In this document: positions 14,437 to 19,684 of the stretch, piece after piece
Numbering within the stretch: position 1 is the first letter of the stretch
Layout: every line of letters begins with the position of its first letter
Assembly: GCA_015099395.1 (NCBI GenBank)
Contig: AP024096.1
Span: 4,650,001-4,714,000, forward strand
DNA length: 64,000 nucleotides
Direction of reading: 5' to 3'
DNA from: Ktedonobacteria bacterium brp13
GTDB lineage: Bacteria > Chloroflexota > Ktedonobacteria > Ktedonobacterales > Ktedonobacteraceae
Translations under genes and position numbers: made by a program
The notes under the pieces: model-generated
The model's input: the letters and a program-made list of their open reading frames with translations, nothing else
Databases searched by the model: none
Told to the model about the DNA's origin: nothing

Positions 14437-15288
14437 TTAGAGACCTTTGAGCTTCCCGGCATCACGCAACCGCTGAATCCCAGCCAACTCTTTCTTACCA
14501 CGCGCCTCCAACTCCTTTGTCCAATCATTTTTATATTTGTGCATCACCTTGACCAGCGTCTCCGCAATCGCCAGGTTACGATACCACTTGTGATTAGAGG
14601 GCACGATATACCAGGGGGCCTCATCGGTGCTACACTCACTGAGTGCCGCCTCGTACGCATCCTGATACTTGTCCCAGTAAGGACGCTCGGCAAAATCGCT
14701 GGACGAGATCTTCCAGGCTTTATCTTTATCATCAACGCGCGCCTTCAGACGCGCAACCTGCTCATCCGAGCTGATGTACAGAAAGAACTTGAGGATGATA
14801 GTGCCATTCTGCGCCAGCAGCTTCTCGAATTGATTGATCTCTTTATAGCGCTTGCTCCAGACGTCTTCCGGAACCAGGTTGTGTACACGCACAACCAACA
14901 CATCCTCATAATGTGAACGGTTGAAGATCCCCATCCTACCGCGCCCGGGCGTCACGTTATGGATACGCCAGAGGAAATCGTGCGCCAGTTCCTCATCAGT
15001 CGGTGCCTTGAACGAATGCACTTCACACCCCTGCGGATTGACGCTCGACATCACATGTCGGATGGTGCCATCCTTACCACTAGTATCCATCCCCTGCAGC
15101 ACGATCAGCACACTATTCTTCTGCGCAGCCGCCATCAACTCCTGTAACTCACCCAGCTCTTTGTTCAGATTGTTCATCTCAGTGGTCACATCATCACGCT
15201 CGACCCGTTTCGAGATATACGAAGGATCATAATGCTTGAGCTTCACAGTATCGCCCTCAGCAACCTTCCAGAGCAAATTTTGCGACAT
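14437..15288 (-). CDS. Polyphosphate kinase 2 family phosphotransferase
   Basis: A 283-residue one-domain PPK2. It should move phosphate between inorganic polyphosphate and nucleoside mono- or diphosphates in the cytoplasm. The Walker A loop is GMDTSGKDG (residues 66-74) and the Walker B-like motif is GIFNRSHYEDVLVVRVH. The lid region has RLKARVDDKDKAWK, and the ISSSDFAERPYWDKYQDAYE block is typical of the polyphosphate:AMP/ADP group. Length fits a single-domain PPK2. Whether it favours AMP or ADP cannot be read here. It stands alone, convergent with the Y-family polymerase. Confidence 0.9.
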   Translation of the reverse strand: MSQNLLWKVAEGDTVKLKHYDPSYISKRVERDDVTTEMNNLNKELGELQELMAAAQKNSVLIVLQGMDTSGKDGTIRHVMSSVNPQGCEVHSFKAPTDEELAHDFLWRIHNVTPGRGRMGIFNRSHYEDVLVVRVHNLVPEDVWSKRYKEINQFEKLLAQNGTIILKFFLYISSDEQVARLKARVDDKDKAWKISSSDFAERPYWDKYQDAYEAALSECSTDEAPWYIVPSNHKWYRNLAIAETLVKVMHKYKNDWTKELEARGKKELAGIQRLRDAGKLKGL

Positions 15289-16042
15289 AGTTTTTCAGTA
15301 TCCTTCCATCTACAACATGCTCACGGCCATAATCTTTTACTTGTAGTATATACGACTGGCTAGTTGCGAGTAATTTCTATTGCTCGACCGGTAGAAGAGC
15401 GTAACGATCTTTTATACAGATAGCAGTAATGCACTTTCATAGTGCATTCAGCGATATTCTGCTACAAAATGATGTTGGAGTAGATAAAATGATTACACTT
15501 AGCAATTAGAATACGCTACCCTCTATAAAGAATATGGACAGTGCCATCAGGCATAACACAGAAGGTATGAGAGAGTATACAAGTAACAGCACATTCTATT
15601 TATATATGGCACGCGATGACGAACGACGTTCCTTATAAGGAGATAATAAGGCAACACTGAACGGTTGCGCGTAAGGGGAGTGCCTTGCATTCACTGATTT
15701 TCCATTCTCAATACAGAGCATCCTATATTTTACGCTGAAGTCATTCGCTAAACTACCACCAATACAAGGCAGTCTCAACAAAAACGTGTAATGCCGGAAG
15801 ATAACGCGAGGGAGATTATTCTCCAGATAATGATCGCTCTTCATGATATAATAGGTGATGAAGAGGTAAGATTCCCAGCAGGTAGTCGCGTATCGACGAA
15901 AGCAAAAACAATCTTGTATTATCCGAAGTATTGACACATTGCACGAATGGCACGTATACTGCTTTTGCCGAGAACTCGTGTGTATTTTTGTAGCAGTCGT
16001 AGATATTACGATTGACGGGAAGATTGTGGAAGAGAAGTATTC
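15289..16042. other. Divergent intergenic region, no gene seen
   Basis: 750 A/T-rich bases separate the PPK2 gene (minus) from the CHAT-Clp gene (plus). A minus-strand frame at 15596-16051 has no coding character. Promoters for both neighbours must lie here, but I could not identify good -35/-10 pairs. Confidence 0.5.
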
Positions 16043-19000
16043 ATGGAACAACCAGCTCTACTCAGTATTATACGTACAGACACCAACTATCGGTTTCGCC
16101 TTGATCTTCCCGATGGTCCGGTAGGCCAGGAGTATAGCACCGATCTCACCCCGGAGATACGCGAGCGCTTACGAAGGGCACTACAAGCCCTGGGTCCGTC
16201 TGGTCAGGGCACTGAGGGTCGGCGACAAACACAACAAATACAACAGACGCTACAGATATCCAAGCCGGGGCCGAATAATGATGCCCTGGTAACCCTGGGA
16301 CGTTTTCTGTTTGACACGCTTCTCCCTTCTCCCATACAAGAAGCTCTACGTAAACTCGATGAGGCACTTCTCCTCAATACGAATACGCCTGAGATCCCAT
16401 GGGAGCTGCTCTTTGATAATAACGCTCGTGCCAGACGCTACCTCTGCCAGTCGGTCAGCATTGGACGTCAGGTAGCGCAAAACGCCGAGATGGCAGCGCA
16501 CGCCACGGCATTTGAGCGCACAACACGTAGTAAGGCAGCAAAACGCGAGACGCAAGGGCTCTCCGTCCTCTTTCTGGTCAATCCTACCAGCGAGCGCAAC
16601 AGCGCGGAAGAAGAGGTTGCATCCCTCTGCACCAGTCTTCCAGAGTCGATTACACGCATCATTTTATATCGCCAGCAGGCCAACCAATTGGAGTTGCATG
16701 TCCGTCTGAGCGCGGATGCCCCACATGTCATACACTATGCAGGACCCGCGCCGCTCTTTGAAAGTAAAGGCAGTCCATCGCTGGCACTGGCGGGCAACTC
16801 ACGTCTTGATGGCCCATCCTTAGAGCAGCTTTTTCAGGGACTCCCCAGGCATCCACTCGTCTTCCTCAGCCAACATGATGACGAGCGCGCCGGGCGTACC
16901 GTCTCCGGAAGCTTGCTCAGTCAGGCCGAGCGCGATGAGCAGATGGAGACTCTGGTGGGTAATCTGCTCGACGCTGGCGCGGGTGCAGTCATCGTGCAAC
17001 GCTGGTCGATTCCAACCGCTCGTGCCCGCGAGTTTATGACGCTCTTCTATCAGGATATCGCCGATGGGGTAACACTGGGCGAAGCTCTGCGCAAAGCTCG
17101 CACTACCATCACACAACACTATCTCGACGATGTCTCCAGCCTTTCATTTATCCTGTACGGCGATCCCACGCAGCAACTGGTGATCAGTACCCTCTCCAGC
17201 AAAGAACGTGCCTCAGAGCCCCATATCGACCCCTTTGATGATAGCCAGTTGATGTCACCACTCCTCTCATCCACTAACGCACCCGACCGACGCTTTTTGC
17301 GCGCAGTCCTGGAGTTCGCATTGGGTGAGGCACGCCGCATGCACAAAGATTATCTTGGCACGCCGCACCTCTTCATCGCACTCACCAAACTGGATGGGGG
17401 CTGCTCACAGGATGCGCTACGCAATCTGGGCTTCTCACCCAAACAGGTACGCGACGTCATCCGACTGGCTCTGGGCAACGGGAAAGCTACCAGCGATACG
17501 CCAATCCTGCCAACACGGCGTTGTAAAGAGATCTTGCAGACGGCGGAGCGCTATGCCATCAATGCCGGTAGCAGTTCAGTCGATGAGCGAGCCATCGCCC
17601 AGGCTGTCCTGAGCGAGGGCGATGGCGTCACCCATGAGCTGCTCACCAAGCTGGGCATCAATCCCAATCAACTGATCGAGATGATCATGACCAGCAATGC
17701 GCATGCACTGCTCGAACTGGTCCCTTCGGCGGGAGCCAATCCAGAGGTGATCCCGGAAGAGTTGCCAGGCGCGATGATCAGCCCGGACGCAAACAAGGGT
17801 TCTAACTCTACATTGGAGAAGCTTGGTCGTGATCTAACCAGGCAGGCAAGCAATAAACAACTCAATCCCCTGATCGGACGTGAAAAAGAGATTCGCCAGT
17901 TGATGCAGACGCTCATGCTCAAGGATCGCAATAATCCTATCTTGATCGGCGACTCCGGCGTCGGTAAGACGACGATTGTGACCGGACTGGCGCAGTGGAT
18001 CGTCGATGGCAAGGTACCACCCGAGCTGCGTGGGAAGCGCCTGATTGAACTCTCTGCCAGTTCGCTGGTAGCAGGGACCAAATATCGCGGTGAGTTCGAA
18101 GAGCGCTTGCTTAAAGTGCTGGAAGAGGCAGAGACCAGCGGCAATATCATCCTCTTTATCGATGAGATGCATCTATTGATCGGGACCGGTCGAGCCGCCG
18201 ATGGCAGTATCGACGCGGCTGGTATCCTCAAACCAGCGCTGGCCGGTGGCCGTCTGCGCTGTATCGGTGCAACCACGCCCCAGGAATATCGCTTGATCGA
18301 GAAGGATGCCGCCATGGAGCGCCGTCTACGTCCGATCATAATCGAGGAACCAACGCCGGGAGATGCACTGGTAATCCTCAAGGGGATGCGCGATCTCTAC
18401 GAAGAGCACCATCATGCGACGATCACCGACGAGGCACTCAGTGCGGCCGTCAATCTTTCAGTCCAGTACCTGCCAAATCTGCGCCTGCCCGATAAAGCCT
18501 GTAGCGTGCTGGATGAAGCCTGCTCACAGGCCCGTGTCTTCTCTATTGAAGACGATTCAAAAGAGCAGGATGACATGGACGAGATTGGAGCCTCTCCAAC
18601 CATTACAGCGGCCATGATCGCCGATGTCATCTCCGCACGCACAGGCATTCCGGTCCGCGCACCAGGTCGCGAAGAGCGGGATCGGCTCCTTACCCTGGAG
18701 TCGCGACTCAAAGCACGCGTCATCGGACAGGATGAAGCCATTAAGCGCGTCTCGCAGGCCATTCAGGTCGCACGTGCCGGACTGAAGCCGCGTAACCGCC
18801 CGGTCGGTGTCTTTATGTTCTTAGGACCGACCGGTGTTGGTAAGACCGAGCTAGCCCGAGCGCTGGCAGCAGAGATCTTCGGCTCCGACGAGCACCTGAT
18901 TCGCGTCGATATGTCGGAGTATAAAGAGAAGCACGACGTCTCGCGTATGATCGGTGCCCCTCCTGGCTACATTGGCTACGATCAAGAGGGTCAGTTAACT

Positions 19001-19684
19001 GGCAAGCTACGACGCCGACCACACTGCGTTGTCCTGCTCGATGAAGTTGAGAAGGCACATCCAGAAGTTTTTGACCTCTTCCTGCAAGTCTTCGACGCCG
19101 GTCGCCTGACCGATGCTCAGGGTCATACGGTCGATGCACAGCACGCCGTCTGGATCATGACCTCAAACGTCGGCACTGATATGCTAGGACGCTCGATGCC
19201 CAGTGGCTTCCGCGCCAGCATCAAGAGTACCGCCAACGAGATGCAGCGAGATCGCCTGATGGACCGCCTTCGTGAGACCTTCCGACCAGAGTTTCTGAAC
19301 CGTATCGACGAAATCGTCATCTTTCATCCGTTGGACAGAGAGCAAGCCAGAGCTATTACCGGTCTCCAGATCACCGAACTGGCAACCCGCCTGCTAGAAC
19401 AGGGACTGGTCTTGCGTGCCGAAGATAGTGCCATCGACCTGCTCAGTAAAGAAGGCTTTAGCGAGACCCAGGGCGCACGTCCGCTACGCCGTGTCATCGA
19501 ACGCCTGCTGACAGTACCGCTAAGCTTGCGTATCCTGCTCGCCAATATCCCGCAGAACGGCGAGGTCCACGTCAGCGCCGTCGAAGGCAAACTGGAGATA
19601 GATATCCGCGAGCCGAGCACGACCAGCGAGCCTGAAGAAGCGATCGATAAGCCTATCGATAGCAAAGTTGAAGCTGAGATATAA
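16043..19684 (+). CDS. CHAT-like domain fused to a Clp-N / double-AAA+ unfoldase (ClpC/ClpA type)
   Basis: A 1213-residue fusion. Residues about 80-380 resemble a CHAT caspase-like domain (IPWELLFD; PHVIHYAG; PLVFLS; GAGAVIVQRWSI; SFILYGDP). Its His and Cys positions are Pro235 and His278, so it should be inactive as a protease. A Clp-N repeat domain follows (about 415-550), then AAA1 with Walker A GDSGVGKTT (636-644), Walker B LFIDEMH and pore loop KYRGEF. AAA2 has GPTGVGKTE (928-936), LLDEVEKAHPEVF and pore loop GYIGYD. No long middle domain separates them. SGF at 1054-1056 sits where ClpP-binding tripeptides occur. I infer an ATP-driven unfoldase whose CHAT-like head selects partners or substrates. 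A lone gene with a strong terminator. Confidence 0.85.
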   Translation: MEQPALLSIIRTDTNYRFRLDLPDGPVGQEYSTDLTPEIRERLRRALQALGPSGQGTEGRRQTQQIQQTLQISKPGPNNDALVTLGRFLFDTLLPSPIQEALRKLDEALLLNTNTPEIPWELLFDNNARARRYLCQSVSIGRQVAQNAEMAAHATAFERTTRSKAAKRETQGLSVLFLVNPTSERNSAEEEVASLCTSLPESITRIILYRQQANQLELHVRLSADAPHVIHYAGPAPLFESKGSPSLALAGNSRLDGPSLEQLFQGLPRHPLVFLSQHDDERAGRTVSGSLLSQAERDEQMETLVGNLLDAGAGAVIVQRWSIPTARAREFMTLFYQDIADGVTLGEALRKARTTITQHYLDDVSSLSFILYGDPTQQLVISTLSSKERASEPHIDPFDDSQLMSPLLSSTNAPDRRFLRAVLEFALGEARRMHKDYLGTPHLFIALTKLDGGCSQDALRNLGFSPKQVRDVIRLALGNGKATSDTPILPTRRCKEILQTAERYAINAGSSSVDERAIAQAVLSEGDGVTHELLTKLGINPNQLIEMIMTSNAHALLELVPSAGANPEVIPEELPGAMISPDANKGSNSTLEKLGRDLTRQASNKQLNPLIGREKEIRQLMQTLMLKDRNNPILIGDSGVGKTTIVTGLAQWIVDGKVPPELRGKRLIELSASSLVAGTKYRGEFEERLLKVLEEAETSGNIILFIDEMHLLIGTGRAADGSIDAAGILKPALAGGRLRCIGATTPQEYRLIEKDAAMERRLRPIIIEEPTPGDALVILKGMRDLYEEHHHATITDEALSAAVNLSVQYLPNLRLPDKACSVLDEACSQARVFSIEDDSKEQDDMDEIGASPTITAAMIADVISARTGIPVRAPGREERDRLLTLESRLKARVIGQDEAIKRVSQAIQVARAGLKPRNRPVGVFMFLGPTGVGKTELARALAAEIFGSDEHLIRVDMSEYKEKHDVSRMIGAPPGYIGYDQEGQLTGKLRRRPHCVVLLDEVEKAHPEVFDLFLQVFDAGRLTDAQGHTVDAQHAVWIMTSNVGTDMLGRSMPSGFRASIKSTANEMQRDRLMDRLRETFRPEFLNRIDEIVIFHPLDREQARAITGLQITELATRLLEQGLVLRAEDSAIDLLSKEGFSETQGARPLRRVIERLLTVPLSLRILLANIPQNGEVHVSAVEGKLEIDIREPSTTSEPEEAIDKPIDSKVEAEI

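Follow-up and report, generated by a model that had tools for sequence, protein, structure and literature searches.

A dead CHAT protease domain as the putative substrate-selecting head of a Clp unfoldase in Ktedonobacteraceae

The single-contig genome of Ktedonobacteria bacterium brp13 (8.88 Mb) encodes a protein in which a CHAT domain without its catalytic dyad is fused to a ClpC-type unfoldase. The gene lies in a stretch of 64,000 nucleotides, referred to here as the window. Clp unfoldases are usually directed by N-domains, M-domains, or separate adaptors. In this protein, a whole separase-like protease fold has apparently been turned into a Clp selector and fixed in a bacterial family. On balance we favor reading it as a dedicated unfoldase of the ClpC type whose adaptor, a pseudo-protease, is built into the chain; the dead protease is probably a grip that chooses what the motor unfolds. 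CHAT domains, separases, Clp proteins, and pseudo-caspases are each known; what appears to be new is a dead protease domesticated as the head of a Clp unfoldase. The protein is a case of pseudoenzyme evolution with a live-dyad counterpart in related lineages. It may also open a way to program ClpP for new substrates, and it would link caspase-like folds with AAA+ proteolysis in bacteria, outside immunity. The gene and its parts are located as follows (window coordinates, all on the + strand):

15931..15960, +, σA-like promoter TTGACA-N18-TATACT (exact matches upstream in 14 of 28 loci, including the window)
16043..19684, +, CHAT-ClpN-AAA1-AAA2 fusion gene, a single open reading frame of 1213 amino acids
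16043..17191, +, pseudo-CHAT (separase-like) head, residues 1-383 (Pfam CHAT, predicted model, fold matches)
16745..16747, +, Pro235 codon, the former catalytic His position (alignment with nine CHAT proteins; 26 orthologues)
16874..16876, +, His278 codon, the former catalytic Cys position (same alignments)
17000..17005, +, Arg320-Trp321, invariant in 26/26 (orthologue alignment, nine comparison CHAT proteins)
17192..17287, +, linker, residues 384-415, of low confidence and probably flexible (pLDDT <50 at 383-397 and 402-412)
17288..17722, +, Clp N-terminal domain, about residues 416-560, in two Clp_N stretches (Pfam, alignment)
17810..18532, +, AAA1 with lid: Walker A GDSGVGKT (636-643), Walker B IILFIDE, pore loop TKYRGE (Pfam, alignments)
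18533..18649, +, short inter-motor segment at the place of the M-domain in ClpC/ClpE/ClpB (six-paralogue alignment, lengths)
18650..19576, +, AAA2 with D2-small: Walker A GPTGVGKT, Walker B VLLDEVE, pore loop PGYIGY (Pfam, alignments)
19202..19210, +, SGF tripeptide, residues 1054-1056, at the position of the ClpP-docking loop (structure matches, alignments of paralogues and 26 orthologues)

The first-pass annotation had described a CHAT-like head and a complete ClpC/ClpA-type unfoldase in one chain of 1213 residues, and this is confirmed by the open reading frame and by Pfam. The CHAT match covers residues 85-359 (E 4.9e-19; 69.3 bits vs a cut-off of 24), Clp_N begins at residue 426 (45 bits, two stretches), and further matches to AAA, AAA_lid_9, AAA_2, and ClpB_D2-small reach residue 1177. 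The 25 best of the 52 Pfam rows for this protein do not include Peptidase_C14. The NCBIfam ClpA model matches residues 419-1178 in one piece, scoring 668 bits and thus below its cut-off of 993; the ClpB model (755 bits, cut-off 1232) and related models likewise stay under their cut-offs.

A predicted model of the head, which ends at residue 412, was used for a fold search and gave CHAT/separase matches, in line with the fold originally proposed. It is this fold search that places the head; when the head profile was run against PDB sequences, only a chance-level row was returned. The replacement of both catalytic residues, by Pro235 and His278, had also been pointed out from the window's copy, and it holds for the whole family. 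His and Cys occupy the catalytic places in 9/9 comparison CHAT proteins from the same genome or phylum; in the same alignment, neither is found at its place in 13 family copies. Among the 26 full-length orthologues (including the window), position 235 is Pro in 17, Ala in six, and Val in three, while position 278 is Tyr in 19, His in six, and Thr in one. The dyad is therefore present in 0/26. Three of these copies carry a Cys one place earlier, at 277, and none has a His at 235. If the head still cut, it would have to do so via substitute residues, e.g., Cys196 together with His231. Cys196 is indeed invariant in 27/27 heads and His231 is found in 25/26, but the latter is a Tyr in L054 and neither residue coincides with a catalytic position in the fold. 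We regard such residual cutting as extremely improbable.

Caspase-fold proteins with a replaced His-Cys dyad have been described in bacteria as pseudo-orthocaspases (PMC6426788). Two of them were reported from Ktedonobacter genomes (Ktedonobacteria; PMC6426788); these are possibly the fusion protein. They differ from it in that they were found by the p20 model (Peptidase_C14), and the main text does not refer to CHAT, Clp, or AAA (PMC6426788).

Loss of the dyad has not led to decay of the head. Its dN/dS values of 0.05-0.18, compared to 0.00-0.065 for the two motors (Nei-Gojobori, nine pairs, with synonymous sites near saturation in several of them, so that the less diverged pairs weigh more), indicate purifying selection. 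The faster evolution of the head than of the motor in these pairs fits a receptor or a looser constraint equally well. Position 320 is an Arg in 26/26 family copies vs 0/9 comparison CHAT proteins, and residues 207-216 (ILYRQQANQL) are invariant or nearly so among 27 heads; together, these conserved residues may mark a new, putative binding site. For a CHAT fold that has lost both catalytic residues and is fused to an apparently active motor, a binding or regulatory role would be the natural reading, which agrees with the binding module suggested at the outset.

Compared against solved structures, residues 417-1213 match ClpC/MecB best (E 7.7e-192), followed by ClpB, ClpE, and ClpA. In 26/26 orthologues, both AAA domains have intact Walker A and B motifs, pore loops, and arginine-finger regions if small changes, e.g., FLNRI/FLSRI or PGYVGY/PGYVGH, are allowed. 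The ClpC-type double-AAA motor thus is apparently active, as the window's copy alone had already suggested. A quick AAA1 tree with 13 of the 26 copies groups the family in one clade apart from the ClpB, ClpC, and ClpE rows. With ClpC/MecB (Hsp100/Clp) the protein shares the Clp N-domain, AAA1, AAA2, D2-small, and the position of the ClpP loop, but it carries an extra CHAT head, lacks the M-domain, and mostly has SGF in place of VGF. ClpA likewise is not known to have an M-domain, and the one-piece match to its NCBIfam model is a further likeness; however, this score is below the cut-off, the fusion protein has the extra head, and solved ClpA scores below ClpC.

Besides the fusion protein, the source genome encodes six class I Clp ATPases. 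Two of these score above the ClpB cut-off, and we read the other four as two ClpC-like proteins, one of them encoded beside a radA-like gene, and two ClpE-like proteins, both with a zinc-finger-like start. Between the flanking motifs, the inter-motor stretch measures 40 residues in the fusion protein vs 85-86 in the ClpC/ClpE-like paralogues and 148 in ClpB. Judged by these aligned lengths, the M-domain is missing from the fusion protein. ClpC uses this domain to bind adaptors and for its resting state. Since it is missing, the head would take over substrate choice and perhaps gating. In the mechanism we propose, six heads (one ring's complement, which we take from Clp biology) would be tethered by flexible linkers over the ring of N-domains. 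Particular proteins would be captured, without being cut, by the former substrate-binding face of the CHAT fold, perhaps where the scissile segment sat, and N-domains and pore loops would then pull these through the ring. The likeliest fate of a substrate would be degradation by a ClpP ring of the cell, contacted via the (S/V/L/M)GF loop.

The general ClpP-docking motif is [LIVM]G[FL]. The corresponding triplet of the 26 orthologues is SGF in 21, VGF in two, and LGF, MGF, and GGF in one each, and the loop residues G-F-R are kept in all of them. In the ClpC- and ClpE-like paralogues of the genome, the first residue of the triplet is Ile or Met, and the loop is absent from the two ClpB proteins. 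Taken at the level of sequence, the ClpP loop appears to be kept, yet weakened at its first residue. VGF is the docking triplet of ClpX, ClpC, and ClpE; in ClpE, the loop with this triplet docks into ClpP, and the interaction is broken when VGF is changed to GGR (PMC13125188). ClpP docking as initially suggested therefore stays plausible in that the loop is kept, but the case is weaker than it was made, as SGF does not conform to [LIV]GF in 21/26. In favor of a ClpP partner, each of the 47 genomes of the order has one to six ClpP matches; against it, 20-1900 kb separate the fusion gene from the nearest clpP (12 genomes with both on one listed contig).

The main alternative, which we consider possible but rather doubtful, is a ClpP-independent remodeller or disaggregase: the head would pick substrates and the motors would unfold them, with nothing being degraded. 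The departure of these 21 SGF copies even from the broader [LIVM]GF would suit such a protein, and three other Clp ATPases of the genome with IGF or MGF loops could serve ClpP. But the two ClpB proteins of the genome do without the loop, whereas the fusion keeps it with its G-F-R throughout, and a ClpB-type M-domain is not found in the fusion protein. We therefore hold ClpP to be the likeliest partner of the proposed unfoldase and ClpP-free remodelling the next likeliest reading; an immune role, the sensing of CHAT proteins, and catalysis by the head are less likely.

CHAT sensing would make the head a regulator that pairs with the cell's active CHAT proteases, which the motor would then extract, activate, or destroy. 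The analogy is with the human pseudo-caspase cFLIP(L), which pairs with caspase-8 (PMC6426788). Candidate partners do exist: nearly all family genomes have further CHAT matches, the source genome four of them (one scoring better as Peptidase_C14), and five genomes (G031-G034 and G043) have, at a distance of 27-41 kb from the fusion, a CHAT gene with a high score (213-222 bits, model positions 3-289). This linkage is loose and not general, however, and in G029 (83% complete) the fusion is the sole CHAT match among the matches listed. The suggestion that the unfoldase recruits or senses CHAT-type partners thus finds no general backing from neighbors or distribution, and we think it unlikely.

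Some CHAT genes are located close to clpP. At L083 (G000:C1:2782000-2801000) and L084 (G000:C1:7959000-7978000) of the source genome they start 4-5 kb from it and encode a TPR-CHAT protein and a CHAT protein with NB-ARC-like and TPR parts. Distances of 4-10 kb were found in the four genus members checked and in G036, never involving the fusion gene. No such closeness was seen in G031-G035, G038, G042, and G043 (14 contigs from the 13 of 47 genomes carrying both, among the matches listed, the G038 fusion not being included). A functional neighborhood was therefore rejected, and we read the arrangement as inherited gene order.

For the distribution of the fusion, we searched a family of 29 genomes, Ktedonobacteraceae in a broad sense (the name is our own assignment; NCBI taxonomy places Dictyobacter in Dictyobacteraceae, Ktedonobacterales). 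Using the head as query, the fusion was found in 28/29, with one full-length copy per genome, and the remaining genome (G045) is 76% complete. The copy of G026 (L053; G026:C1:3244000-3262000) is split over more than one frame, by loss or sequencing error. The other 18 genomes of the order gave weak CHAT matches in three cases and none in 15. With the head profile, all strong matches among 400 genomes of the phylum fell into the family, the best one outside reaching 66 bits (at most four, in another run at most two, candidates were scored per genome). A single-head scan of 84,980 species, which detects close relatives only, the profile searches having covered the phylum, returned three loci titled Ktedonobacterales, Dictyobacter vulcani, and Ktedonobacteraceae. 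The fusion thus recurs in other genomes, a point the first-pass annotation had left to be checked, and so do its neighbors: a gene read as sensor kinase is found near it in 18/28 loci, a Y-family polymerase-like gene in 14/28, and a gene read as nitrilase-like in 13/28, contig ends limiting these counts. Overall, it looks like a vertically inherited core gene.

This picture also bears on the immune or cell-death flavor given to the protein at first. Type III-E CRISPR employs a CHAT protease (PMC9729208), and the fusion protein is matched by two PADLOC candidate-defence models, PDC-M37B (E 2.5e-38) and DolB (E 3.5e-34), but only at about residues 880-1057 of AAA2. All six PADLOC models with a match lie within the AAA domains, and none matches the head. 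Phages and viral contigs gave no match, and plasmids only three weak CHAT-like ones (23-27% identity, all with query coverage below 80%). Because of the distribution, which is neither patchy nor mobile, and the conserved chromosomal neighbors, we dropped the notion of an immune or cell-death system as very unlikely. Relative to TPR-CHAT/Csx29 (Craspase) and the separase protease domain, the fusion protein lacks the catalytic His and Cys, has no TPR part, and is joined to an unfoldase. In the open-licence PMC literature, a CHAT domain together with AAA+ was met only in the Csx29 paper; no paper joining CHAT and Clp and none on a Ktedonobacter CHAT was found there, which does not amount to absence in print.

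DUF4012 genes are found in 20/28 loci (the window is counted but has none itself; one member was Pfam-scanned), 109-665 bp upstream on the same strand in 19 loci and at 2952 bp in L051. Within 14437-16042 of the window, this place is taken by a gene for polyphosphate kinase 2 on the opposite strand. Since DUF4012 is missing at the window's locus and the fusion gene often has its own promoter, we do not count it as a partner. Exact TTGACA-N17/18-TATACT matches were found upstream in 14/28 loci including the window (two of the 28 have <80 bp of upstream sequence); they start 109-132 bp before the ATG in 12 loci and 215 and 272 bp before it in two. A search for the extended promoter in the source genome returned one site, the fusion gene's own. 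The leader from promoter to ATG (15931-16042) is well conserved among near relatives, with the blocks TATACTGCTTTTGC and GAAGATTGTGGAAGAGAAGTATTC.

Six of the weak matches outside the family were inspected. In four of them (two of G056, one each of G118 and G125), no open reading frame reached E 1e-3 against the Clp part. In the other two, L124 of G008 and L125 of G002, a neighboring open reading frame did. These genomes belong to two other families of the order, and their CHAT proteins, of 889 and 864 amino acids, align with the fusion in one 707-column run from CHAT through N-domain to AAA1 (probability 99.9, E 9.5e-33; two sister rows vs 14 of the 26 fusion copies). Pfam calls CHAT in both; AAA-type matches are below the cut-offs and Clp_N is not called, so that the N-domain is placed here by the profile alignment. 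Both proteins keep the CHAT His and Cys. Their AAA domain, in turn, lacks the Walker A lysine in G008, has Asp for Thr there in G002, and is without the Walker B Asp-Glu in either; a second AAA domain is absent from both. Downstream, at 35 bp (G008) and 32 bp (G002), follows a second gene with Clp_N, whose Walker A is intact in both genomes and Walker B in G008, both genes running off their contigs.

This reciprocal state, live CHAT on decayed AAA vs dead CHAT on live motors, is the most surprising result of our analysis, although two genomes are few. The collinear profile match favors a shared CHAT-Clp ancestor of the fusion and the sister proteins, but part of it is generic Clp signal and the trees are not decisive. 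In a quick CHAT tree with 13 of the 26 copies, the family heads do not join those of G008 and G002 (long branches, weak inner support), and the AAA1 tree does not place the second gene of G008. We tentatively suggest, with less confidence than we have in the adaptor reading itself, a class of CHAT-Clp machines in Ktedonobacterales whose lineages differ in which part is active, protease or motor, the one being traded for the other. A live separase-like CHAT on a decayed AAA plus a separate live Clp gene would be the state of two lineages, and one chain with a dead protease and two live motors that of the window's family, where the dead separase would have become the head by which a new core Clp unfoldase recognizes its substrates. 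In G008, three tandem protein-kinase-like genes (L124, 1-9408; the one scanned has kinase and TPR parts) are located just upstream of the CHAT gene, and together with the CHAT protein and the ClpN-AAA gene they look like a signalling-plus-Clp operon.
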